35,844 nucleotides of DNA. It comes from Candidatus Zixiibacteriota bacterium (GTDB taxonomy: Bacteria; Zixibacteria; MSB-5A5; CAIYYT01). Below are positions 16,408-35,709 of the stretch, piece by piece. Where the stretch lies: the NCBI GenBank assembly GCA_020853795.1, contig JADYYF010000070.1:1-35844 (forward strand), read 5' to 3'. The translations under genes and the position numbers were made by a program. Within the stretch, counting starts at the first letter, position 1, and every line of letters begins with the position of its first letter. The notes beneath the pieces are model-generated. The model had not been told where the DNA came from. It made no database searches and worked only from the letters and a program-made list of their open reading frames with translations.

Positions 16408-17958
16408 ATGTCCATCGAAGATAAATTGCGGCTGTTGCGGGAGAAGCAGCAGCAGGCCAAGCTCGGCGGGGGCGCCGACAAGATTGCGGCACAGCACAAG
16501 AAGGGCAAACTGACCGCGCGCGAGCGCCTCGAACTGCTGCTCGACCCCGGTTCGTTCGAGGAATTCGACATGTTCGTCACGCATCGCTCGACCGACTTCG
16601 GTCTCGACAAGGTCAGTTACCCCGGCGACGGCGTGGTGACCGGTTGCGGCCTGATCGACAATCGCATCGTCTTCGTGTTCAGCCAGGATTTCACCGTGTT
16701 TGGCGGCTCGCTTTCAGAGGCTCACGCCGAGAAGATCTGCAAGATTATGAAAGACGCGATGAAGGTAGGCGCGCCGGTGATCGGGCTCAACGATTCCGGC
16801 GGCGCGCGGATTCAGGAGGGGGTTGTCTCGCTGGGCGGCTATGCCGATATCTTCCTGCTGAATACGCTGGCCTCCGGCGTCGTCCCGCAGATTTCGGCGA
16901 TTTTGGGTCCCTGCGCCGGCGGCGCGGTGTATTCGCCGGCGATCACCGATTTCGTCTTCATGGTGCGGAAGACCTCGTACATGTTTGTCACCGGCCCGAA
17001 CGTCGTCAAGACGGTGACCCACGAGGATGTCACGATGGAGGACCTTGGGGGCGCCGATACGCACGCGAGCAAGAGCGGCGTCGCGCACTTCGCCTGCGAT
17101 TCCGAGGCGGAGGCGCTGTTCAACATCCGCAAGCTGATCTCGTTTATTCCGCAGAATAACTTGGAGGAAACGCCGCTGCGGCAGGCCACTGATCCGAGCG
17201 ACCGCGTTGACGAGCGCCTGAACCACATCATCCCCGACAACCCGAACAAGCCTTACGACATGATCGAAGTGATCAAGCTGATCGTCGATGACGGCGATTA
17301 CCTGGAAGTGCATGCCGACTACGCCCCCAATATCACGGTCGGATTTGCGCGTCTCGGCGGCCGGTCGATCGGCCTTATCGGCAACCAGCCCGCGCACCTG
17401 GCCGGGGTTCTTGATATCGAGTCGTCGATCAAGGGTGCCCGCTTTATTCGCTTCTGCGATGCTTTCAATATTCCGTTGGTCACGTTCGAAGATGTCCCCG
17501 GCTTCCTGCCCGGCGTGGCGCAGGAACATCACGGGATCATCAAACACGGCGCCAAGCTGCTGTATGCGTATTGCGAAGCAACCGTGCCGAAGATCACCGT
17601 GATTACGCGCAAGGCTTATGGCGGAGCGTACGACGTGATGAATTCCAAGCACGTGCGCGGTGACATGAACTATGCCTGGCCGACGGCCGAGATCGCCGTC
17701 ATGGGCCCCAAGGGCGCAGTCGAGATCATCTTCAAGAAGGAAATCGAGTCTGCTGCCGATCCGCGGAAAGCCCTGGATGAAAAGGTTGCCGAGTACACGG
17801 AGAAGTTCGCCAATCCGTACATCGCGGCCGAGCGCGGTTATATTGACGACATCATCGAGCCGGCGCAGACGCGTCCACGCTTGATTCGCGCGCTCGGGAT
17901 GCTGGCGAGCAAGCGGGACTCAAACCCGCCCAAGAAACACGGCAATATCCCGCTGTAA
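16408..17958 (+). CDS. Acyl-CoA carboxylase carboxyltransferase subunit (propionyl-CoA type)
   Basis: Transfers CO2 between carboxybiotin and an acyl-CoA, either as the beta subunit of propionyl-CoA carboxylase (PccB) or as methylmalonyl-CoA decarboxylase alpha (MmdA). The 516-residue length is standard. Two crotonase-fold halves are visible, with the oxyanion-hole motifs SGGARIQEG (130-138) and [20 protein letters not shown]. Asp409 in [14 protein letters not shown] is the position where propionyl-CoA enzymes carry Asp and acetyl-CoA enzymes do not, supporting propionyl/methylmalonyl-CoA. No biotin carboxylase, biotin carrier, membrane decarboxylase or epimerase gene is in the window, so the direction of the reaction cannot be decided. 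SD GGAG is seven bases before the ATG. Confidence 0.93.
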
Positions 17959-18009
17959 TGTCGGGTTTCGCGGGGACGTCAAACATCGACGTCGGCCGTG
18001 CACTTTTAT

Positions 18010-18039
18010 TTGACGCACTAGCCAGCGCGTGCGTATCAT
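18010..18039 (+). promoter_or_regulatory. Candidate promoter for the 18072 lipoprotein gene
   Basis: TTGACG (18010-18015), 18-base spacer, TATCAT (18034-18039). Distance to the chosen start (18072) is right for a short leader, which also argues against the longer in-frame start at 17958. Confidence 0.55.
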
Positions 18040-18071
18040 TGCCAAAATCATCGGAGAGGAGACACGGAAAG

Positions 18072-18710
18072 TTGAAGACCAGATTCCTATTTACGGCCGC
18101 AGCCGTGACTGCAATCAGTGTGATGTTCGCCGCCTGCAGTAAGACCGAAAAGGCGCAAACCGAATCGCAATCGCAACAGATGCCGCCGCAACAGAGCCAG
18201 ATGCCGCCGCAAGGCAATCCGCATGCGGCTGCGGTTCCGAACACCGTTGCCGGGATTACCTGGTTGACGCCAGAAGGCTGGGCGTCGGGCGGCGACCGCC
18301 CGATGCGCATTGCCACCTACCTGATTGACCCCGCCGACGGCAAGGCCGAGTGCGCCGTTTTCTACTTCGGCTCCGGTCAGGGCGGGGATGTTGACGCCAA
18401 CCTCGCCCGCTGGATTCGGCAGGTCGCGCAGCCGGATGGTTCGGATTCGCAGGCGAAGGCCAAGCACGGGACGATTGCGTCCGAGTGCTGCGAGATCAAG
18501 ACGATCGAAGTGGAGGGCACTTACATGTTTTCAGCCGGTCCGATGATGCAGGTTCAGGAGGAGCGTCCCGACTACATTCTGTTGGGCGGGATTGCCCCCG
18601 CGCCGGAGGGAAACGTGTTTTTCAAGCTGACTGGCCCGAAGGCCAAGGCCGAGCAGTGGCGCGCTTCCTTTGGCGCACTTTTGAAGTCGATCAAGAAGAC
18701 CACGTCGTAG
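18072..18710 (+). CDS. Probable lipoprotein, unknown function
   Basis: The 212-residue product starts MKTRFLFTAAAVTAISVMFA followed by Ala-Cys22, a lipoprotein signal with a somewhat atypical lipobox (Phe-Ala-Ala-Cys). A Gln/Pro-rich linker with MPPQ repeats follows (about 30-50), then a globular domain starting TWLTPEGW with a Cys pair (ECCEIK). I do not recognise the domain; TPEGW and the final LTGPKAKAEQW...FGALLKSI recall small outer-membrane-side proteins that measure or bind something at the surface, but no function follows. The start is the TTG at 18072 with SD AGGAGA nine bases upstream and a promoter before it. The frame is open back to 17958, but that part overlaps promoter and SD. 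It is followed by a good terminator. Confidence 0.78.
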   Translation: MKTRFLFTAAAVTAISVMFAACSKTEKAQTESQSQQMPPQQSQMPPQGNPHAAAVPNTVAGITWLTPEGWASGGDRPMRIATYLIDPADGKAECAVFYFGSGQGGDVDANLARWIRQVAQPDGSDSQAKAKHGTIASECCEIKTIEVEGTYMFSAGPMMQVQEERPDYILLGGIAPAPEGNVFFKLTGPKAKAEQWRASFGALLKSIKKTTS

Positions 18711-18751
18711 ATACCGTCGGCCTCGCAGCCGACACTGCACCGGACTTAGGG

Positions 18752-18785
18752 CCGCCGTCGCGCCAGTGACGGCGGTTTTCTTGTT
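18752..18785 (+). terminator. Rho-independent terminator
   Basis: CCGCCGTC (18752-18759) / GACGGCGG (18768-18775), 8-base loop, followed by TTTTCTTGTT. Confidence 0.85.
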
Positions 18786-19094
18786 GCTGCGTCCCGATTC
18801 TGCAAAAAATCGACAATTTGGTGTACGAACCTAACGTCGACAATCCTCTTTACGTTAAGCAATAGCTTGCTCGCAATCTCACCAACCGCAACGGCGACGG
18901 CATTTCGGCGCGTGCTGGACTGCCGGCGATGTTCGTCGCAGACAGGAGGTGCCGGCCAGTAGGGAGAAGAGACCTATTGTTGACTGTCTTAGGCTGTATG
19001 TACCCGCTCCGACCGCTGGCGCGGTCCTCCGATGGGTAACCCACGGCCGCGTTCGTGGTCGGAGCTGAATTCTGGATCGCGGAGGTTAATCGGA
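18786..19094. other. Leader region of the lipoprotein protease, no gene seen
   Basis: No supported gene. A plus-strand frame runs from 19032 into the protease gene but has no SD. TTGACT (about 18978) lacks a matching -10 at proper spacing. Two AGGAG-like motifs (18944, 19081) occur; only the second precedes a start. Confidence 0.5.
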
Positions 19095-20120
19095 ATGAAA
19101 TCGAAGTTTATCGCCAAGTACACCTTGATCGCTTTGATCAGCCTGACCCTGCTGTCGTCGTTGCTTTGGGTTGGCTGCGGCACCGATCAGAATCCTGTGG
19201 ATAATTCCATGAGTTCATTATCGCCCAATAGACCGGAGAATTTCAAGAAGGCTATCGCTGCTCAAGAGCGGTTTACGGAGCAACTGATGCAGCTGAACGG
19301 CGTGGTCGGCACGGGCACCGGCGTCGATGCCAACGGCAACCCTGTTGTCAAGGTCTTCACCTCGCGGCCGGATGTCAAAGGCATCCCCGGGACGCTTGAC
19401 GGTATCCCGGTCGCGATCGAAGAGACGGGAGAATTCACCGCCTTCAGCCTGACTGAGTACTACCGTCCGGTTCCCATCGGTGTCTCGGTGGGCAACAATC
19501 TGGAGTGTGCTGCCGGTACGATCGGCTGTGTGATCTATATCAACGGCGAGAAGTATATCCTGTCGAACAACCATGTTCTCGCGCGGGAGAATCTGGCGGT
19601 CATCGGCGAGGACATCGTCCAGCCGGGCCGCTACGATATTAACTGTGCCGATCATCTGGCCACCGACAAGGTGGGCGATCTCAGCGACTTCGAGCCGCTG
19701 AAGTTTGACGGCACCAATAATTACATCGATGCCGCCATCGCCGAGTACTCGACGACGGACGTCACCTGTGCGACGTTGCCGGAATTCTACCAGTTTCCGT
19801 CCGGCGCGGTTGCCACTGCCGCCGTCGGCCAGGCGATCAAGAAGGTTGGACGCACGACGGAATTCACCACGGGCACGGTCTCAGCGATCAATGTGACAAT
19901 CAGTGTCGGCTACACGCGCGGAACGGCGAAGTTCGTCGGACAGATCATGACCAGCAAGAAGTTCTGCAAAGCCGGAGATTCCGGTTCACTCGTGGTGCTA
20001 AACGATGGGACTGATCGACCGGTCGGTCTCCTCTTCGGGGGCACCAAGACCGGTCAGGCGATCCTGAATCCGATCGGTTCGGTTCTAACTCGTTTTGGCG
20101 CTTCAATCTGCGAGAATTGA
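19095..20120 (+). CDS. Lipoprotein with trypsin-like (clan PA) serine protease domain
   Basis: The 341-residue product begins with a lipoprotein-like signal (MKSKFIAKYTLIALISLTLL, Cys28 in WVGCGT). A small domain VVGTGTGVDANGNPVVKVFT (70-89) follows. The protease core has all three catalytic residues in order: His160 in LSNNHVLA, Asp212 in NYIDAAIAEY and Ser296 in KAGDSGSLVV. The pattern resembles the Nal1-like group of trypsin-fold proteins rather than DegP; there is no PDZ domain. Six or more cysteines in the mature part suggest disulfides in an extracytoplasmic protein. The start is the ATG at 19095 with SD GGAGG (19081-19085); the frame opens 63 bases earlier without SD. Probably attached to a cell-envelope membrane. 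Substrate unknown. Confidence 0.82.
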   Translation: MKSKFIAKYTLIALISLTLLSSLLWVGCGTDQNPVDNSMSSLSPNRPENFKKAIAAQERFTEQLMQLNGVVGTGTGVDANGNPVVKVFTSRPDVKGIPGTLDGIPVAIEETGEFTAFSLTEYYRPVPIGVSVGNNLECAAGTIGCVIYINGEKYILSNNHVLARENLAVIGEDIVQPGRYDINCADHLATDKVGDLSDFEPLKFDGTNNYIDAAIAEYSTTDVTCATLPEFYQFPSGAVATAAVGQAIKKVGRTTEFTTGTVSAINVTISVGYTRGTAKFVGQIMTSKKFCKAGDSGSLVVLNDGTDRPVGLLFGGTKTGQAILNPIGSVLTRFGASICEN

Positions 20121-26269: not shown

Positions 26270-26926
26270 ATGGTATTCAATTTGATCGCCCTGCTGGTTG
26301 TGCTCGCTTTTATCGCCATCGGCACCAAGAAGGGCTTTCTGCGCGAACTGATGGCGCTGCTCGGACTGGTCGCCGCGCTCGTCATCTCGACCGGTAAACT
26401 TGATTTCGTGGCGGAGGAGATTGCCGCCGCGCTGGATGCCTCGCCGCTGACGGTGGCGGTGATTTCCTATATCATCGTGCTCGGCCTGATCTACGCGTTG
26501 TTCAAGCTGCTGGCCAAGATCCTCGAGAAGGCGATCTCGGTGCAGAGTCTCGGCGACCGCGACAAGTGGGGCGGTGCGATTGTCGGCGCAATTCGCGGCT
26601 GGCTGATCGCCGGCGTGCTGCTGTTCATGACCATCATCCTGCCGCTGCCGCGTGCCTACTACGAGATGATGGACAAGTCGATGCTGGCGACCTCCGCGGC
26701 CAAGTCGATCCAGGTGATTTACGACACCTCCAAGCCGCTGCACAGGACCTGGCCGACGTTTGTCGAGAAGGTGGAAGCGACCTTGACGACGATGCCGAGC
26801 GACAAGAAGGACGCTCCGAAGCGCAAGACGCGCAAGTCGCCGGAGAAGCAGGCCAAGGAAGCGCTGGCATTGCAGGATGCGCTCGACCGGCTGTATTATT
26901 TCTACGGCGAGGCGGATACGTATTAG
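26270..26926 (+). CDS. cvpA: CvpA-family membrane protein
   Basis: The 218-residue protein has the CvpA (colicin V production) pattern. Four hydrophobic helices lie in the first 130 residues, the family motif of a first helix followed by GTKKGFLRELMALLGL (18-33), and a third helix followed by LGDRDKWGGAIVGAIRGWL. A charged Lys-rich tail (about 175-218) follows. The molecular role of CvpA is unsettled; it affects envelope homeostasis in several bacteria. The start ATG 26270 has SD GGAGG (26260-26264). The frame is open 348 bases further back, but that part is Arg/Ser/Pro-rich repeat-derived sequence. It probably has its own promoter, since 369 bases separate it from rpe. Confidence 0.88.
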   Translation: MVFNLIALLVVLAFIAIGTKKGFLRELMALLGLVAALVISTGKLDFVAEEIAAALDASPLTVAVISYIIVLGLIYALFKLLAKILEKAISVQSLGDRDKWGGAIVGAIRGWLIAGVLLFMTIILPLPRAYYEMMDKSMLATSAAKSIQVIYDTSKPLHRTWPTFVEKVEATLTTMPSDKKDAPKRKTRKSPEKQAKEALALQDALDRLYYFYGEADTY

Positions 26927-26940
26927 GTGCACCCCACCAT

Positions 26941-27374
26941 GACAGACGAGATTGTCTATCTCACTGGCGATTCCTCTGTGCGGGCCTAATTGACAGACAA
27001 GAATGTCTATCCTACCGGGAATGTTGGTAGGTTAGACATTCCTGTCTGACACCGGAAAATCCTAATGAAAGCGAAAACTCCGTAGGGGTAGGGACTGCCT
27101 ACCGGCATGATCCGGCGCAGATTCGTTGGTTGGGCAGCGACAGACAAGAATGTCTATCCTAACAGATTGTTGGTGGGTCGGGTGGTAGGTCAGGATCCCT
27201 GCGATCCTGACGTTGGCTGGGAAGATTCAGTTGGCGTCAGGTCACATCCCGCACGGTTGAGGGCAGAGGCTTTTCCAAATGGTGCGTCGTGCGAGACAAA
27301 ACGTGACGCAACGGGATCACACCAGTGGATTCGCTGCATAGGCTGAGTTGACTGACAGGAATGTCTATCCTACC
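26941..27374. repeat. Cluster of GACAGACAAGAATGTC repeats
   Basis: Five units in about 430 bases: forward at 26941-26964 (diverged), 26992-27016, 27139-27161 and 27350-27374, and reverse at 27026-27050. The forward unit begins GACAGACAAGAATGTCTATC and ends CTACC. Units 26992-27016 and 27026-27050 form a 25-bp inverted repeat with three mismatches around a 9-base loop. A further pair lies at 1594-1663. No transposase is nearby, so this is a REP-like non-coding element family. Confidence 0.88.
27189..27211. repeat. GTCAGGATC palindromic repeat, copy 2
   Basis: GTCAGGATC (27189-27197), loop CCTGC, GATCCTGAC (27203-27211). It is the reverse orientation of 16304-16326 and is embedded among the GACAGACAAG repeats. 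Confidence 0.85.
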
Positions 27375-28101: not shown

Positions 28102-29379
28102 ATGCTCAACAAACTCTGGCGTCGCCATCAGAACGCCAACCAACTTCCCAGCGATCCGGCGTCGAGCCGCCTCGCAGCCAAAAACGTTTCTGTGTCGCAG
28201 CCGCGTCTAAAGACGATCACTCTCGATCTTGATCGTGGTATCCACTTGTCTCCCTTCGACTCCGGTCGCGCCCGGCTCGAGATCTACCGTTTCTTGCGTG
28301 ACCAGGTCCCGGTGCTCAATGCCGTGATTTGGACCTGGGTACGGCTTTGCGCCGCCCGCTATGACTTTCAGATTGTCGGCGCCCGCTCGGCCGAGCAGGA
28401 GGACGCCGTTCGATCAGTCCTGTACGATCTCGACCAGCGGGTCTACCGCAATGGTCTGCTCAAGCGCGGTGGCTTCCGCGAGCTGCTGCTGCAATTCTTC
28501 GAGTCGTTGTTCACCGACGGCGCTGTCTGCGGCGAGCTCCAGCTTTCACCGTCGCGCCGGCAAGTGGATCGCTTCCTGCTTGCCGATATGAAGACGATCG
28601 TCATCGAGCCGGAGGGCGAGAACTACCGTCTTTATCAGGAAGATGACACCCGCCGCAGCGCGCTCAATCCCGACACGATTTTCTACTATGGATTGGGTGC
28701 CCAGCCCGGTTCGGTGAGCGGGCGGTCGCTGCTGGCGGCGATTCCGTTCGTAGCGCGCATAGAGCAGACTTTGGTCTCGGATATGCACCGCGCCATGCGC
28801 TCCGCCGGCTATCACCGCATCCACGTCAAGGTCACCCGCCCCGAGAAACGTTCCGATGAAAGCGACGGCGACTACTTCACGCGCGCTAATAACTATTTTG
28901 ACGACACCGTCGAGATGATGCGCGATTTCGGACCGGACAAGAATCCGGTCACGTGGGACGATGTCAATATCGAGTATCTCGGCCCCGGCACGCGCTCGTC
29001 GTCGGCTTCCGGGTGGTATCTCAACCACAAGTCGATGATCGAGGATATTTGTTCCGGCACGCATCTGGCGCCGTTCATGCTGGGTTACGCTTACGGCACG
29101 ACCCACAACTGGGCCGAGTTCAAATACGAGCTGGTGCAACGACAGGTGGTCACGGTGCAGAACGCGGCGGCCTCGCTGCTCAACTGGATCGCGAACGTCG
29201 AGCTGGCGCTGCGCGGCATCCCGGCCGAAGTCCAATATCGTTTCGAAAATCGGGCCCACATCGGCCTGACCGAGCGCGCGCAGGCGGAGAAGATCCAGAT
29301 CGAGAACATCGTCACGAAGTTGAACAACAAGCTGATCACGCAGGAGGACGCGGCCAACCAGATCGCGCGGATGGCGTGA
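28102..29379 (+). CDS. Phage portal protein
   Basis: Forms the dodecameric channel at one capsid vertex through which DNA enters and leaves. The 425 residues fit portal proteins: an N-terminal part with two helices (FDSGRARLEIYRFLRDQVPVLNAVIWTWVRL in overlapping pieces, about 51-81), the core YYGLGAQPGSVSGRSLLAAI (about 194-213), a long stem helix, then HLAPFMLGYAYGTTHNWAEF and a terminal helix rich in Gln and Asn ending KLNNKLITQEDAANQIARMA. This order (GRS-x-L followed by helices and a late P-x-x-LG) is that of HK97/SPP1-type portals. SD TAGGAGGA lies eight bases before the ATG. It precedes the terminase here, the reverse of the common order. Identification is by pattern, so the subfamily is open. 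Confidence 0.85.
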   Translation: MLNKLWRRHQNANQLPSDPASSRLAAKNVSVSQPRLKTITLDLDRGIHLSPFDSGRARLEIYRFLRDQVPVLNAVIWTWVRLCAARYDFQIVGARSAEQEDAVRSVLYDLDQRVYRNGLLKRGGFRELLLQFFESLFTDGAVCGELQLSPSRRQVDRFLLADMKTIVIEPEGENYRLYQEDDTRRSALNPDTIFYYGLGAQPGSVSGRSLLAAIPFVARIEQTLVSDMHRAMRSAGYHRIHVKVTRPEKRSDESDGDYFTRANNYFDDTVEMMRDFGPDKNPVTWDDVNIEYLGPGTRSSSASGWYLNHKSMIEDICSGTHLAPFMLGYAYGTTHNWAEFKYELVQRQVVTVQNAAASLLNWIANVELALRGIPAEVQYRFENRAHIGLTERAQAEKIQIENIVTKLNNKLITQEDAANQIARMA

Positions 29380-29401
29380 GCGATCTGGCGCGCGCACCAC
29401 G

Positions 29402-29542
29402 CCCCTGTAGCTCCGACTTTAGTCGGAGAAGGGCGACGGGCAGGTATAGCGTTCGATGGAAGAGGGTGCCCGACAGAAGGAGGACGGTATCCGACTGAAG
29501 TCGGATCTACAGGGGAGGGGGCATGTCCGACTGAAGTCGGAC
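29402..29542. repeat. Three TCCGACT palindromes, two of them a long inverted pair
   Basis: Palindromes at 29411-29428 (CTCCGACT-TT-AGTCGGAG), 29489-29506 (ATCCGACT-GA-AGTCGGAT) and 29525-29542 (GTCCGACT-GA-AGTCGGAC). CCCCTGTAG (29402-29410) before the first pairs with CTACAGGGG (29507-29515) after the second, so the first two are facing copies. The family also occurs at 12857-12878 in the host region. Confidence 0.9.
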
Positions 29543-29608
29543 CCACGGGGGGCTGCAGGTCGTTTGAGGTTCCGCATTTAATCATCGCTGGAGTCAGAGG
29601 GATCACTT

Positions 29609-30949
29609 GTGCCTAAGTCGACATTCTCACGCAACAATCGCTGGCGGCGGGCGGTCACCGACCCGGTGTTGTTCTGCCGCGAATTTCTGGAGCTGGAGCC
29701 GCATCCGGGCCAGCGGCAGTGGTTGATGCAGTCGGTCAAGGATCAGAATCTGCTGGTCACCGGCAACCGCTGGGGCAAGTCACTGATCCAGGCCGCCAAG
29801 CTCCTGCACCGCGCGGTCTATCGTATTCGGTCGCGCCGTTATGACGACTGCCCGCGCTACCGTATCCTCAACCTCTCGATTACGCAGGACCAGGCAAACA
29901 TCGTCTTCAACAACTGCCTGCAGTTGATCCGTGGCAAGTCGCTGGTCGAACTATTGGTCGATAGTGTGGTGCAAACGCCGTATCCGAGAATCGTCTTCGG
30001 CAACGGCGCCGAGATCACCGCCCGCACGTCGCAGAACCGCGCCGAGCATATTCTCGGCCACGACTACGATTTGATCAGCTTCGATGAGGTCGCCTTCGAG
30101 CCCCACGTTGACTACATTGTCAACGAGGTGCTGACGATGCGGCTGGCTGACCGCAGCGGCCGCCTCGATCTGGTTTCCACGCCGTGCGGGCGCAACTGGT
30201 TCTATCGCAAGTACCGCGAGTTGAAAGCTCGTCCCGAAAGCGCGTACGTGCAATGGGGCGCGGCAGCGGAGAATCCGAATATCAGTCAGGACTTTCTGGA
30301 AGAGAAACGCTCCCGGTTGTCGCCCGCGCGCGTCGCGCAGAACCTGGCCGGGTTGTTCGTCGATTCCGATCGCGAAATTCTGAAGGAGGAACAGATCCAG
30401 TTAGCCGTGGCGCAGTCGACCGGCCTGGCGTCACGAATGCCCGAGCATCGCTACGTCTCCGGCTGGGACTTGGCGCGCAAAGAGACCTTCACCGTCGGCA
30501 TCACACTCGATATCACCACGCTGCCGTATCAACTGGTCAAGTTGGAGCGGTTTCAGAATCGCGACTGGCCGTTTGTCTATGCGGCGATCCGCGCGCGCAA
30601 GCGCGAGTATGGCGGCGACACGGTGATCGATGCCACCGGTGTCGGGGATGTGGTTCTCGCCGAAGTCGAAGACATCCATCCGATCGGCTTCATTTTCACG
30701 ACGCACACGAAAGCGGAACTGCTGACGAACCTGCAATCGCAATTCGCGGCGGGGAATGTGGGGTTGCCGCCGATCGAGACTGACGTCGGGGGGAATGACT
30801 ATTGGAGTCTGGCGGATGAACTGCGGGATCTGAACTGGGACAAAAATAACCACTGCGACGCCGCGATGGCGCTCGCACTGGCGTTGTGGGGGGCGAAGTC
30901 AGCGAAGTCGAAAATGCCGGACCTGGGCTTTCGACTTGGTGAGGTCTAA
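29609..30949 (+). CDS. Terminase large subunit
   Basis: Packaging motor and nuclease of a tailed phage. The 446 residues show an ATPase domain with Walker A TGNRWGKS (51-58), the Walker B/catalytic pair ISFDE with Asp159-Glu160 and motif III VSTPCGRN (about 189-196). An RNase-H-fold nuclease follows, with acidic residues Asp287 (GWDLARK), Asp341 (VIDATGVGD) and Asp417 (NHCDAAMALALAL). All motifs are intact, so it looks functional. The start is GTG with SD AGAGGG seven bases upstream. It is separated from the portal gene by a 229-base gap holding three host-type palindromes. Its stop overlaps tail to tail with the minus-strand PEP-CTERM gene. No small terminase gene is visible. Confidence 0.93.
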   Translation: MPKSTFSRNNRWRRAVTDPVLFCREFLELEPHPGQRQWLMQSVKDQNLLVTGNRWGKSLIQAAKLLHRAVYRIRSRRYDDCPRYRILNLSITQDQANIVFNNCLQLIRGKSLVELLVDSVVQTPYPRIVFGNGAEITARTSQNRAEHILGHDYDLISFDEVAFEPHVDYIVNEVLTMRLADRSGRLDLVSTPCGRNWFYRKYRELKARPESAYVQWGAAAENPNISQDFLEEKRSRLSPARVAQNLAGLFVDSDREILKEEQIQLAVAQSTGLASRMPEHRYVSGWDLARKETFTVGITLDITTLPYQLVKLERFQNRDWPFVYAAIRARKREYGGDTVIDATGVGDVVLAEVEDIHPIGFIFTTHTKAELLTNLQSQFAAGNVGLPPIETDVGGNDYWSLADELRDLNWDKNNHCDAAMALALALWGAKSAKSKMPDLGFRLGEV

Positions 30950-31281
30950 CTCCGCCGTTTCAGCATGCGCAGGCCGGCCAGACCGGCGCCCAGGAGCAGA
31001 ATCGTCGCCGGTTCGGGAACCGTCGTCGGCGGCAGGCTGCCGTCCTGGTTGTTCTGCTCGGGGGTGTAGATGTCGCGATCAAACTGGTCGCCGATGCGAT
31101 CAGTTGTGCTGTTGACCAGCGAGTTGGTCGTCGAGCCCGAAGTGGTCAGGCTGGTGTTCGGCTTGTGGAAGCCCAGCACCATCGGATTGCCGTAAGCGTT
31201 CGTGTAGCTCAGGCACAGGATCGCGAGCACGGTCAAGATTGCCAGCGCGGTAAGTTTGGTGGTACTAACAAATCGTTCCAA
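30946..31281 (-). CDS. PEP-CTERM sorting-signal protein
   Basis: Minus-strand gene of 111 residues. An N-terminal signal sequence (MERFVSTTKLTALAILTVLA onward, cleavage near 31) leads to a short Thr/Ser/Asn-rich exported segment. The product ends in a canonical PEP-CTERM: VPEPATILLLGAGLAGL followed by a basic tail RMLKRRS. Exosortase recognises this tail and removes it, releasing or anchoring the protein at the surface, often with exopolysaccharide. The mature part, about 60 residues, is very short. Start: TTG at 31281 with SD AGGAGA six bases upstream; the frame extends further but the extension has no signal. It ends within the terminase gene (30946-30949 shared). It is host-type, and unexpected within a phage head module. 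No exosortase gene in the window. Confidence 0.87.
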   Translation of the reverse strand: MERFVSTTKLTALAILTVLAILCLSYTNAYGNPMVLGFHKPNTSLTTSGSTTNSLVNSTTDRIGDQFDRDIYTPEQNNQDGSLPPTTVPEPATILLLGAGLAGLRMLKRRS

Positions 31282-31599
31282 GAGCAATCTCCTCTCAAGG
31301 TCTACATTAACAGAATCTATGCCGAAAAGCCCCATGCGGAATAAAACCGTCCAACTACTTGCGGATGAACGAGTTGGATAAGTGAAATTCTCCCGTTGGC
31401 CGCTTGCGGCACTCATTAACATTGCAGCGCACTGCACATAAGTTACGCGCAACTGCTTCCGGCACAACGCCCAGTCCGCCCTGCCGTCAACTCCGCCGTC
31501 GATCGGCAAATCACTACAAGACCCGGCCAGCCGGTAGTGAATCGCTCCAAGAATCAGACCGCACTCCTTAGTGAAGGACAACGCTTCACAGGAGGTCAT
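31282..31599. other. Divergent gap between PEP-CTERM gene and head-protease fusion
   Basis: Presumably carries promoters for both directions, but I find none of good quality. A hairpin TCCAACT (31350-31356) / AGTTGGA (31372-31378) lies in the PEP-CTERM leader side. The plus-strand frame of the fusion gene is open from 31537, with no SD there. No other gene seen. Confidence 0.5.
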
Positions 31600-33372
31600 G
31601 TGAAACATCTCACCGGAAGTCTGGCCGCGACCGCAAGTCTCGACTCCGAACAGGACAAGAATGAACTGGTCGCGGAGATCAATCGCGTCATCAAGCCGTC
31701 ACGTGCGGCGACCGTCGACAATGTCTATCTCGGTGTGCTTGATGCCGCCTCCAACCGCGTGAATGCGCAGGGCGGGTGCTTCGGTTTGGCCGAGCTGGCG
31801 CGTTTGGCCGGCCTGATCGTCGATGTGCCGGTCTTGATCGGTCACAAGAAGCAGGAACTGCCGATCGGCCGCGTCTTCAAGGCGGAGGTCATTGAGCGCG
31901 ATGGCGCACCGTGGTTGCGCGCCTACTTCTACTGGCATCGCGAGCAAACGGGTGCCGACGAACTCAAGGCCGGGATTGATGCGGGCGTTTACCGCGAATG
32001 CTCGCTCGGATTCTTGTACGCCCAACCCGAGTGCGGTATCTGCGGGCTCGACATGCGCAACTGCCGCCATCGGGTGCATGAGCCGGTGCGGGTCGGGAAT
32101 CGCGAAGTGCGCGCGTTCTACTTCTACCGGAAAATTCAGCGCGTGTTGGAAGTGTCGCTGGTGTATCGTGGGGCCGTTGACGGCACCGCCGTTTCGACCC
32201 TGGCGCATCCCAACGCTCACGGCGAGGCCGATCCCTTTTGGCGGCAAAACGCCGCAATCATCTTCGATCCGTCCCAGCTTACCGTCGCACCCGGCGAACT
32301 GCTGATCGAACCCTTGTATCGTGGCGTGTGGCTGAGGCTCGATTCGTCCGGCGCGCAGATGCCCAACGGCGAGGAGTTCGATCATCCGGCCGCCGCTGAA
32401 GCTGCTGCGAAGATCGCCGAGCGCAAGGCCGTTGTCATCTGTCAAGCGATCGCCATGCGCGGTTCCAGTCGCCTGCCGGTGCGGAGCCTGCTGCGATCGA
32501 GCAATCGGGCGCGCGCCCGGCTCGTGGCATTTGACATTCTCCGCCTCGACGGCCATGATCTGGCGCACCTCAGTCTCCACGAGCGGCGGCGGTCGCTGCA
32601 GGAGTTGGTTGAGCAGGTCGACGGCCTCGAACTGGCGCCGCTGCAGCGGTGCTCGCTGGGAGAACTGGCGACTCACCCGGAACGTCACGGCTCAGCCGAC
32701 GGTGCGCGCATCATTTCTATCACCGCCAGCGGTTGCACCGTCACGGAATTTCGCCGCAAGACGCACCTGCGGGTCATGATCAAGCCGGAGTCGCTCGATG
32801 AGCACCGCCACTCGCTGGTTGCCCAATTGCGTGACGGCGAAACGCTCAAGCTGGAACTGCCGGACCCTGCACTTGACCTGACGACGCCCCTGGTGTGGAT
32901 CGAGCCGGTGCCCGGCGATTCGCAGCGCTGGCGGATGATCGACAGTGCCTGCGGCGATCGCGATTCTGATCCGGCCGAGGTTTTGACCAAGTTGCCGCCG
33001 CGCACGCGCCATCGCTTTGTGCTTCTGCTCGACACCAACGGCAACGCCTGGCTGCATCTGCGCCTGTCGGGCACCGAGCGGCTCTTCAAGATCGCGCTGT
33101 TGCGGTTGCCGCTCTTGCAGCTTGGCCGCCGGTTCTGGAGTGCGGCGATTGAGGCGAGTCCGGCGGCAATTCCGCAGGGCGTCCGGGTCCTCGATCGCGG
33201 CGTTGTCGAACAGTACTACGAGTGCCCCGAGTCCGGCGCCACGCTGACGCTCACCGGCGAGACGCTGCGCGACCGCTACGTCTTCAGCCGCACCAAACTG
33301 AGCGGACATCGCGCCTTCCTCTTTTCCCGTTCGGCCAGCGCTGCGCCGCTGCCGAGTCTAGCCGAGGAGTAA
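31600..33372 (+). CDS. Phage head-maturation-protease-like protein fused to degenerate DNA-ligase-like domains
   Basis: A 590-residue protein with three parts. (1) About 40-200, prohead-protease-like: VDVPVLIGHKKQELPIGRVF, then CSLGF and a Cys knuckle CGICGLDMRNC (145-156 region), a common feature of this head-protease context. (2) About 231-395, ATP-dependent DNA ligase-like: LLIEPLYRGVWLRL stands where ligases have EPKxDGVR (motif I), VVICQAIA where they have the DGE motif III, and an intact-looking motif IIIa, VAFDILRLDGHDL followed by LSLHERRRSLQELV. (3) About 467-578, resembling the LigD 3'-phosphoesterase: RFVLLLDTNGNAWLHLRLSG and VRVLDRGVVEQYYE, then LTLTGETLRDRYVFSRTK. The nucleotidyl Lys is absent. 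Start: GTG 31600 behind SD AGGAGGT (short spacing); GTG 31537 lacks an SD. Confidence 0.7.
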   Translation: MKHLTGSLAATASLDSEQDKNELVAEINRVIKPSRAATVDNVYLGVLDAASNRVNAQGGCFGLAELARLAGLIVDVPVLIGHKKQELPIGRVFKAEVIERDGAPWLRAYFYWHREQTGADELKAGIDAGVYRECSLGFLYAQPECGICGLDMRNCRHRVHEPVRVGNREVRAFYFYRKIQRVLEVSLVYRGAVDGTAVSTLAHPNAHGEADPFWRQNAAIIFDPSQLTVAPGELLIEPLYRGVWLRLDSSGAQMPNGEEFDHPAAAEAAAKIAERKAVVICQAIAMRGSSRLPVRSLLRSSNRARARLVAFDILRLDGHDLAHLSLHERRRSLQELVEQVDGLELAPLQRCSLGELATHPERHGSADGARIISITASGCTVTEFRRKTHLRVMIKPESLDEHRHSLVAQLRDGETLKLELPDPALDLTTPLVWIEPVPGDSQRWRMIDSACGDRDSDPAEVLTKLPPRTRHRFVLLLDTNGNAWLHLRLSGTERLFKIALLRLPLLQLGRRFWSAAIEASPAAIPQGVRVLDRGVVEQYYECPESGATLTLTGETLRDRYVFSRTKLSGHRAFLFSRSASAAPLPSLAEE

Positions 33373-33373
33373 C

Positions 33374-33715
33374 ATGAAGAAAGCCAAACTTGCGCATCCG
33401 CAGAACCACAGCTCGGACGCGCCCGATCTTTTCCGCCGCGACAACCTGCTGCGCCTGCTGCTGACGATCGTCGTTGCGGCGGCCGGACTGATTACCGCGT
33501 ATCACGCCACGATCTACGGCCTCAAGGAGCAACTGGCGACCAAGGCCGACCAGCAGCTTGTTGGCGCGATCGATTCGCGGCTGGTGCACATCGAAGCGAT
33601 CCTGAACGAGCGCGTCGCCACCAAGACCGAGTTGCGCGAAGTCCGCGATCACCTCAACCAGAAACTGCTCGGTATCGAGGCGAAACTGCGCCTGCTGCCC
33701 GAGGAGGGAAGATGA
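33374..33715 (+). CDS. Small membrane coiled-coil protein of the head module
   Basis: The 113-residue protein has one transmembrane helix (about 28-46, LLTIVVAAAGLITAYHATIY). A Lys/Glu-rich helical region follows (about 50-105) with heptad-like spacing (LVGAIDSRLVHIEAILNERVATK). This size and layout are seen in phage proteins near holins and in XhlA-like proteins, though XhlA has its membrane helix at the other end. SD GAGGAG overlaps the end of the upstream gene. It begins one base after that gene's stop and shares ATGA with the next. Role unknown. Confidence 0.75.
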   Translation: MKKAKLAHPQNHSSDAPDLFRRDNLLRLLLTIVVAAAGLITAYHATIYGLKEQLATKADQQLVGAIDSRLVHIEAILNERVATKTELREVRDHLNQKLLGIEAKLRLLPEEGR

Positions 33716-34119
33716 CCACTGATGCAATGCTGGCGGCGTTGCACGCCCACGCCGCCGACCTTGAGGCCGATGCGGTCGCTGCGATTGACTTCGCGCAGTT
33801 GCAGCGCGACCTCGAGGCCGCCGGCGCGCTGATCACCGAGCTTGATCGCCGCGCCGAGATCGGCCGGCGATTGCTCGCGAACTTCCGCAGCGATCTGCTG
33901 AACCGCGCCCGCGCCGTGGCCAAACTAACCGGCCGCGGCGCGCGCCTGACCGAGAAATTGATACTTGCCGAGTCGACCACACTCGATGAGTTGCTCGCGC
34001 TCAAAGACGACATCGACCGCGAATTTGACACGGCCTTTGCCCGGACGCTCACCGAGTCCCGCCGCGACGGGACGAGCGATGGGGCCAGGCTGGAACCCTT
34101 CAAAGTGGGGAAGAACTAA
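33712..34119 (+). CDS. Helical protein of the head module, unknown function
   Basis: A 135-residue, Ala/Leu/Arg/Asp-rich protein that should be almost all alpha-helix, with no Cys, signal or membrane segment. Position between head protease and decoration/capsid genes would suit a scaffold or capsid-assembly factor, which are often short helical proteins without sequence conservation; that is inference. Its ATG overlaps the upstream TGA (ATGA at 33712-33715), so the two are coupled. The last 20 residues (GTSDGARLEPFKVGKN) are likely unstructured. Confidence 0.72.
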   Translation: MTTDAMLAALHAHAADLEADAVAAIDFAQLQRDLEAAGALITELDRRAEIGRRLLANFRSDLLNRARAVAKLTGRGARLTEKLILAESTTLDELLALKDDIDREFDTAFARTLTESRRDGTSDGARLEPFKVGKN

Positions 34120-34170: not shown

Positions 34171-34593
34171 ATGGCTGTCCGTGATCAAAATCTCGAAGCC
34201 ACCGGCGCGCTCTATCTGACCTTTGCGATCAGCCAGACCGCCAGTATCGACGACCTGAAGGATGCCGACATCGGCAAGGCCGTCAAACTCGCCAACAATT
34301 TTACCGTCAGCCCCGCGACCGACAATGCCCAAATCGTCGGCAAGCTGGTGGCGCTCACCTTAACCGACGCCGACAACGGCAAGCGCAAAGCGAGCGTGCA
34401 AGTTGCCGGCGTGATGACGCTGCCGATTGCGACGACCTATCCGGCACTCGGCAATCGCGTCGTCGGCGCCGCCAACGGCCGCGTCAAGCAGGCGCCCGCG
34501 CTCGGCGCTTACGATCCGGCGGGCGGCAATCTCGCCCGCGGCACGGTGCTCGCCGTCAACGGCACGACCGACTGCACCATATTGCTCAACTAA
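34171..34593 (+). CDS. Capsid decoration-like protein (DUF2190 type)
   Basis: A 140-residue, Ala/Val/Thr/Gly-rich beta protein. It has the pattern typical of head decoration or DUF2190 proteins: an early DIGKAVKLANN segment, then GKLVALTLTDADNGKRKASVQVAGVMTLP, PALGNRVVGAANGRVKQAP and a final RGTVLAVNGTTDCTILLN. Such proteins bind the outside of HK97-fold capsids and are normally encoded just before the major capsid gene, as here (12 bases upstream). SD AAAGGA precedes the ATG. The assignment is by pattern and position. Confidence 0.72.
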   Translation: MAVRDQNLEATGALYLTFAISQTASIDDLKDADIGKAVKLANNFTVSPATDNAQIVGKLVALTLTDADNGKRKASVQVAGVMTLPIATTYPALGNRVVGAANGRVKQAPALGAYDPAGGNLARGTVLAVNGTTDCTILLN

Positions 34594-34605: not shown

Positions 34606-35709
34606 ATGGAACTGGAAACTTTGCAGCAGATTCCCGAATCCCTTTGGAATCTTGCCGCTGTTGATACGCCGGCCAAGGTGGCGGGGGTCGATCTGACGCG
34701 CGCCACCGGCCTCAAGGTTACGCGCGAAACCTATCAGGAGGCGCAGACCCGCGGGCTCTCGCTGACCCAACTGCTCGAAACCGACGAATACGATCCGTCG
34801 CCGGCGAAGTGTCCCCTGGATGCCTTTGAGCGCCAGTTGGCCGCGGCCGGCGTGCGCGTCAGCGGCAAATCGCCCGACACGGTGGAGTTGTTTTACCGCC
34901 AGGCGCCGACGCTGTTGCCGGAATTCGTGATGCGCGAAATCCGCCGCGGCATGGAGATGCGCCCGATGTTCAACCAGCTCACCGCCGCGCAGACCGTGAT
35001 CGGCTCGAATCGCTATTCGCCGCTGTATATCGCCATCGCGCCGACCGATACACGCCTGTCGCTGCGGCCGCTCGGCGAGGGCGCCGAAATCCCGCAGGTC
35101 GCCGTCGGAGAGCAGAAGCACACGATCACCGTACCCGACTACGGCGTCGCGCTCAAGACGTCGTACAAGACCCTGCGCCACAAGACCACCGCGCAGTTCA
35201 AGGTCCTGCTCTGGTACATCGGGTTCCGGCTGCAATCGGACAAGGTGGCGCTGCTGGCGGACGTCGTCATCAACGGCGACGGCAACGCCAACCCGGCGAC
35301 CGTGATCAACACCGATGTCACGGCCGCACTCGACTACGACGATCTGATCAAGTTCTGGGCGGAGTTCAGTCCCTTCGAACTCAACACGATCATCTGCCAC
35401 AAGACCAAGATGCGGCAGTTGCTGAACCTGGCGGAATTCAAGGACCCGCAATCGGGTTTCAAGTTCCACGCGACGGGCGAACTGGTGTCGCCGCTGGGCG
35501 CCAAGCTTGTCCGTTGCGACGACATTGCCACCGACCTGCTCGTCGGTCTCGACTCGCGCTTCGCCGTCGAGGAGGTAATCAGCCAGCCGCTGATGGTCGA
35601 GTTCGACAAGATCATCGAGCAGAAGTTCGAAGAGGCGGTCATCTCGGAGTCGGTGGCCTTCGCCAAGGTCATCAAGGAAGCCTCCCTCGTCCTTGACGAC
35701 TCCTTCTAA
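34606..35709 (+). CDS. Major capsid protein, HK97-fold
   Basis: The 367-residue protein follows the decoration-like gene. It has an N-terminal helical region (1-95), then an apparent N-arm/E-loop region SNRYSPLYIAIAPTD and a beta-strand stretch QKHTITVPDYGVALKTSYKTLRHK, a typical capsid spine turn. A P-domain helix (TAALDYDDLIKFWAEF) follows, then ICHKTKMRQLLNLAEFKDPQ and a C-terminal LLVGLDSRFAVEEVISQPL and VAFAKVIKEA, as in many HK97-fold capsid proteins. Strong SD AAGGAGA lies seven bases before the ATG. I see no separate scaffold domain; the 95-residue N-terminus could serve as a delta domain removed by the upstream protease, which is inference. Confidence 0.85.
   Translation: MELETLQQIPESLWNLAAVDTPAKVAGVDLTRATGLKVTRETYQEAQTRGLSLTQLLETDEYDPSPAKCPLDAFERQLAAAGVRVSGKSPDTVELFYRQAPTLLPEFVMREIRRGMEMRPMFNQLTAAQTVIGSNRYSPLYIAIAPTDTRLSLRPLGEGAEIPQVAVGEQKHTITVPDYGVALKTSYKTLRHKTTAQFKVLLWYIGFRLQSDKVALLADVVINGDGNANPATVINTDVTAALDYDDLIKFWAEFSPFELNTIICHKTKMRQLLNLAEFKDPQSGFKFHATGELVSPLGAKLVRCDDIATDLLVGLDSRFAVEEVISQPLMVEFDKIIEQKFEEAVISESVAFAKVIKEASLVLDDSF

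Follow-up and report, generated by a model that had tools for sequence, protein, structure and literature searches.

A single gene in the window, the whole 35,844-nucleotide stretch analysed here, encodes a head maturation protease joined to a degenerate DNA ligase and a domain resembling the 3'-phosphoesterase of LigD (Table 1). This joining was proposed in the initial annotation, and all three folds were recovered using AlphaFold and Foldseek. Sequence comparisons trace the protein to a head protein of viral type that joins the protease to an ATP-dependent ligase, an OB fold and a phosphoesterase-like domain; some of these proteins are also Pol-beta-like in part. Judged from its motif residues, the ligase active site survives in viruses and two host families, whereas the other families that bear the domain have lost it. 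We consider it probable that this viral-type fusion has become part of a domesticated module, in which the tail is non-catalytic and structural.

Fused gene and protease domain

One open frame runs from the GTG codon at 31600 to the stop at 33372, and AGGAGG is located upstream of the start at 31590–31595. The same fused frame is present in relatives assembled independently. No frameshift splits the gene: the uninterrupted frame and the fused relatives from other assemblies exclude two separate genes, and 31600–33372 is a single gene, as the initial annotation had assumed.

Table 1. Positions of the fused gene, its domains and the neighbouring head genes in the window
Feature	Position	Strand	Basis or remark
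Portal protein	28102..29379	+	phrog_3753 1.4e-22
Terminase large subunit	29609..30949	+	PF03237 7.5e-6; phrog_2 8.3e-26
Fused gene: head maturation protease, pseudo-ligase and LigD-phosphoesterase-like domain	31600..33372	+	590 aa, GTG start
HK97/assemblin-type protease domain	31600..32199	+	His82, Ser135, Cys cluster; phrog_16951 1.7e-12; Foldseek
Ligase nucleotidyltransferase-like domain (aa 231-385)	32290..32754	+	Pfam, NCBIfam, hhalign, Foldseek; limits approximate
OB-fold-like domain (aa 386-455)	32755..32964	+	Foldseek matches cover both LigD ligase domains; limits approximate
LigD 3'-phosphoesterase-like domain, catalytic positions lost (aa 467-580)	32998..33339	+	Foldseek 3p43, 3n9b; alignment
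Small membrane/coiled-coil protein	33374..33715	+	Position matches small gene (99-118 aa) 3' of protease in relatives
Probable scaffold protein	33712..34119	+	Family of G019 protease C-terminus
Capsid decoration protein	34171..34593	+	phrog_4588 6.5e-8
Major capsid protein	34606..35709	+	phrog_3922 2e-65

The protease part matches the herpesvirus assemblin proteases 2wpo, 1o6e and 2pbk at a probability of 1.00 (Foldseek against the PDB). The catalytic His82 (PVLIGH) and Ser135 (ECSLGF) are invariant in alignments of 40 and 53 relatives, and a CxxCxxDxRxCxH cluster in the same domain is invariant or nearly so in the 40 relatives. The gene sits in a head gene cluster, with the portal, terminase, decoration and capsid genes adjacent. 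We assign the domain to the HK97/assemblin type of head maturation protease, and cleavage of the capsid precursor is its predicted activity. The profile of the probable scaffold protein in the window matches the C-terminus of the G019 protease at E=2e-19 and the protease of phage L156 at 3e-5.

The scanned part of the left flank encodes GMP synthase, fumarase, phosphofructokinase, IMP dehydrogenase, methylmalonyl-CoA mutase, RsmB and other metabolism. The contig, which belongs to a metagenome-assembled genome (MAG), stops shortly after the capsid gene. No integrase or replication genes were detected among the scanned genes of the window, where the right end of the contig is missing, or around G011.

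Several other features were observed. An ORF of 220 residues at 30946–31608 (−), between the terminase and protease genes, has a PEP-CTERM sorting motif (Pfam 3.5e-6), and its relatives are present in G001 and G004. A 23-nt repeat, with the sequence GACAGACAAGAATGTCTATCCTA or a variant of it, occurs in five dispersed copies, some as inverted pairs, at 26797–27372 between a cvpA-like gene and the head module, and a weak sixth match is located at 31710 inside the fused gene. Inverted and direct repeats based on TCCGACTGAAGTCGGA are present at 29397–29551, between the portal and terminase genes. In L053, about 2.2 kb with no obvious phage gene (10814–12982) separates the terminase gene from the fused gene, and a 473-aa protein (17868–19289), with relatives at 35–72% identity across families, follows the capsid gene. 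This protein shows a weak propeller-like Pfam match and no PDB match; for two genes that follow the capsid gene, profile searches of the PDB yielded no convincing match.

Ligase-like and phosphoesterase-like tail

Motif I of the window protein is EPLYRGVW (aa 237–244; 32308–32331), and the catalytic lysine of KxDG is absent. The residues ICQA, ADGARII and FRR stand for LDGE, SEGAIIK and FKWKK of motifs III, IV and V, and motif IIIa, VAFDILRLDGHDL, is present at aa 309–321 (32524–32562). The altered motif I, the loss of motif III and the kept motif IIIa had been noticed at the outset, and they are borne out by alignment with intact relatives. The catalytic His/His/Asp of the phosphoesterase is also absent, as the window protein has LLD...WLHLR in alignment with QLH...HHDLR in f16 (the f-labels are code names for host families). 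These motif residues are catalytic in ligases and phosphoesterases. For the catalytic lysine of ligases, the role is supported by a published study (PMC8656161).

The ligase signal from the sequence by itself is faint though genuine: the window protein matches the Pfam model DNA_ligase_A_M at E=8e-6 with 26.1 bits (cut-off 26.2), and NCBIfam PRK09632 at 1.3e-8. The Pfam domain of ATP-dependent ligases has no second match in the window genome. The dead and intact tails are homologous across most of their length: comparison of their profiles by hhalign resulted in E=5e-17 over 368 columns, and further comparisons resulted in 6e-15 and 4e-23.

The AlphaFold model of the window protein, using an alignment of 53 relatives, has a mean pLDDT of 85.9. 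According to Foldseek against the PDB, the model matches DNA ligases from 2.6e-8, with target-normalised TM scores of 0.43–0.46 for the M. tuberculosis LigD ligase and 0.49 for a mycobacterial LigD. The LigD phosphoesterase 3p43 is matched with a target-normalised TM score of 0.71 and an rmsd of 3.4, and 3n9b with a TM score of 0.56–0.57. Because the first alignment contained intact ligases, a second model was built from 32 f7-type sequences, none of which has the catalytic lysine. This model has a pLDDT of 81, and matches DNA ligases at 5e-5 and 3p43 at a TM score of 0.63. The middle and C-terminal parts, for which structure prediction had been suggested as a check, match the ligase and LigD phosphoesterase folds. 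A chance motif match is excluded by the tail homology from hhalign and the folds found by Foldseek from two models.

Intact relatives and the role of the tail

In the alignment of 73 tails, only f8 and f16 retain EPKYDG, LDGE, SEG..K and KWK, and motif I in these intact families reads EPKYDGVR. The H, H and D positions of the phosphoesterase are retained in f16 and lost in f8. The intact G011 protein matches the Pfam ligase model at 3.6e-30 and a solved LigD-type phosphoesterase at 3e-9. Homologues with the motif I lysine, proposed as a further check in the initial annotation, were thus found in Zixibacteria, and they were also found in viruses. In a scan of IMG/VR with the intact tails, the contigs L237, L238, L239, L240 and L241 were found to carry the same protease family joined to an intact ligase. 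The gene order of L237 (portal, protease-ligase, scaffold, decoration, capsid) is the Zixibacteria order; its portal, decoration and capsid proteins are clearly related to those of Zixibacteria, and its scaffold weakly. The L239 fusion carries an additional stretch, Pol-beta-like in appearance. In L243, a ligase and an XkdF protease are joined in the opposite order. The 'ATP-dependent DNA ligase' of the archaeal virus ANMV-1 (KP703175) consists of Pol-beta-like, ligase and phosphoesterase-like parts and adjoins the portal gene; it has the motif I lysine, and is not fused to the window protease family.

The intact viral fusions, together with L243 and ANMV-1, indicate that such fusions recur as a design among viruses and that the dead form is derived. 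The initial annotation supposed the recruitment of an already dead pair, and this origin is rejected because the ligase residues survive in the viral and the f8 and f16 fusions. Scans of viral and genome contigs with single proteins gave no matches, and the relatives were recovered with alignments. One scan (A3) detected other ligase-bearing viral proteins and no additional protease fusions of the window family; a rescan (A12) detected mostly known contigs and one extra, L282, which is cut off within the protease. A viral protein of 1158 residues (L275 2499–5972) has an intact-looking ligase domain in the C-terminal part and a long N-terminus that is portal-like by eye.

The dN/dS values are about 0.12–0.34 for the dead tails and 0.01–0.16 for the protease; therefore the tail is constrained, though more loosely than the protease, and the dead tail is under purifying selection. 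The ligase part is deleted and the phosphoesterase-like end kept (E 5e-7 to 3e-24) in f13, f11, f3 and G001, the last of which belongs to the window's own genus. The phosphoesterase-like end thus outlasts the ligase part at least four times. In f4, the score of this end is close to those of shuffled controls, and its retention is only suggestive. The tail is almost absent in f2, f9, f10 and f14, and is therefore dispensable in those families. In f12 (G019) a scaffold domain takes the tail position. As most genomes encode the scaffold in a gene of its own, scaffolding need not be a task of the tail.

We infer that the tail acts structurally, mainly through its phosphoesterase-like barrel. In viruses, the enzyme would enter the prohead as part of the fusion, be released there by self-cleavage and then accompany the packaged DNA. 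The domesticated module would have no further need of catalysis; within its prohead, beside the scaffold, the tail would persist as a folded domain that is non-catalytic. The barrel would be the part of the tail most needed for assembly.

The dead pair might instead bind or cap DNA ends at packaging, as first proposed, with a fold that grips DNA and cannot seal it. Known enzymes use ligase nucleotidyltransferase, OB and phosphoesterase folds to bind DNA; the phosphoesterase-like part of the window protein is basic (net charge +8 over 114 aa), and Gly288 and Arg291 of its RGxxR segment do not vary among 53 aligned relatives. However, the net charge is 0 in the nucleotidyltransferase-like part and −3 in the OB-like part, several lineages have lost the ligase part by deletion, and proteases of the HK97 type have normally disappeared by the time DNA enters. 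We regard DNA capping as unlikely. The tail could also be a pro-domain or regulator that sets when and where the protease acts, since it invariably follows a protease that is fully conserved and is itself under purifying selection, and since phages of the window protease family, such as L156, have a scaffold domain at the tail position. This role is quite unlikely, as the short-tailed families retain the protease without the tail. A tail in decay, without any function today, would agree with the lost catalytic residues, the evolution faster than that of the protease and the repeated deletions, but is very unlikely in view of dN/dS values well below 1, long open frames in many genera and the tail residues Pro238, Gly288, Arg291 and Gly368, which are still invariant.

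Head module across the phylum and known systems

The host is a Zixibacteria MAG, and the relatives of the fused protein are from Zixibacteria; all genomes analysed are MAGs or contigs. Among 133 genomes from the phylum, 120 encode the protease (as do 75 of the 79 good ones), 112 the capsid protein and 114 the terminase, each essentially in single copy. In the protease tree, the 19 group labels (host families and one viral outgroup) are resolved in 18 changes, which is the minimum, against 61.5 for shuffled labels. The capsid proteins are 52–87% (mostly 57–87%) identical to the G011 protein across the phylum. The terminase gene is distant from the protease gene in several genomes (about 89 kb in G048 and about 414 kb in G118). 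In G073, the capsid gene is in two parts (C1:1725316–1725765 and 2322220–2322996) separated by about 600 kb of the same contig, by rearrangement or assembly error.

The initial annotation treated the protein as one of a phage head; the counts and the protease tree point to a module that, unlike that of an ordinary phage, is single-copy and passed down vertically across a bacterial phylum. An ordinary integrated prophage is extremely improbable, for although every recognisable gene of the module is a phage head gene, the single copy, the protease tree that follows host families, the capsid identities, the scattered terminase and the housekeeping neighbours all argue against it. The module, known mainly from head genes, appears to be domesticated and gene-transfer-agent-like.

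More tentatively, a LigD-like end-processing and joining enzyme might have been built into the head protease across a wide group of tailed viruses, entering the prohead and leaving with the DNA, and a head of this kind might have been domesticated by Zixibacteria into a gene transfer agent of the whole phylum, whose enzyme still works in two families and is a pseudoenzyme in the others. The viral fusions suggest that the capsid itself can deliver a DNA joining enzyme, which bears on the survival of linear packaged DNA at entry. In the Zixibacteria module, a domesticated capsid would span a phylum, and as intact, dead and deleted tails occur on a single host tree, the function of the domain is directly testable.

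A literature search, weak evidence as subscription journals were mostly outside its scope, found no description of a protease-ligase fusion and no gene transfer agent described for Zixibacteria. Polyvalent proteins (PMC5512222) likewise combine enzyme domains and virion proteins in a single chain, whereas the enzyme of the window protein is dead; a term search of that paper, covering ligases, XkdF, prohead proteases and capsid maturation, found no ligase-protease fusion.

The S78, XkdF and herpesvirus assemblin proteases share with the window protease the fold, the His/Ser pair and the place between the portal/terminase and capsid genes. They have a scaffold or nothing at the tail position, where the window protein has the ligase-like and phosphoesterase-like tail, and the CxxCxxDxRxCxH cluster is a feature of the window protease, unlike these relatives. 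Gene transfer agents (RcGTA and others) resemble the Zixibacteria module in that single-copy capsid and packaging genes are inherited with the host and some genes are scattered. In contrast to them, the Zixibacteria module, known from genes alone, consists of different gene families, is phylum-wide and has the protease-ligase fusion. The ligase and phosphoesterase folds are common to the window protein and LigD of bacterial NHEJ. Unlike LigD, the window protein has the ligase-then-phosphoesterase order and a fused capsid protease, is without the primase-type POL domain and has lost its active sites. The f8 and f16 relatives share the ligase motifs with LigD, and in f16 the aligned phosphoesterase H, H and D are kept as well.
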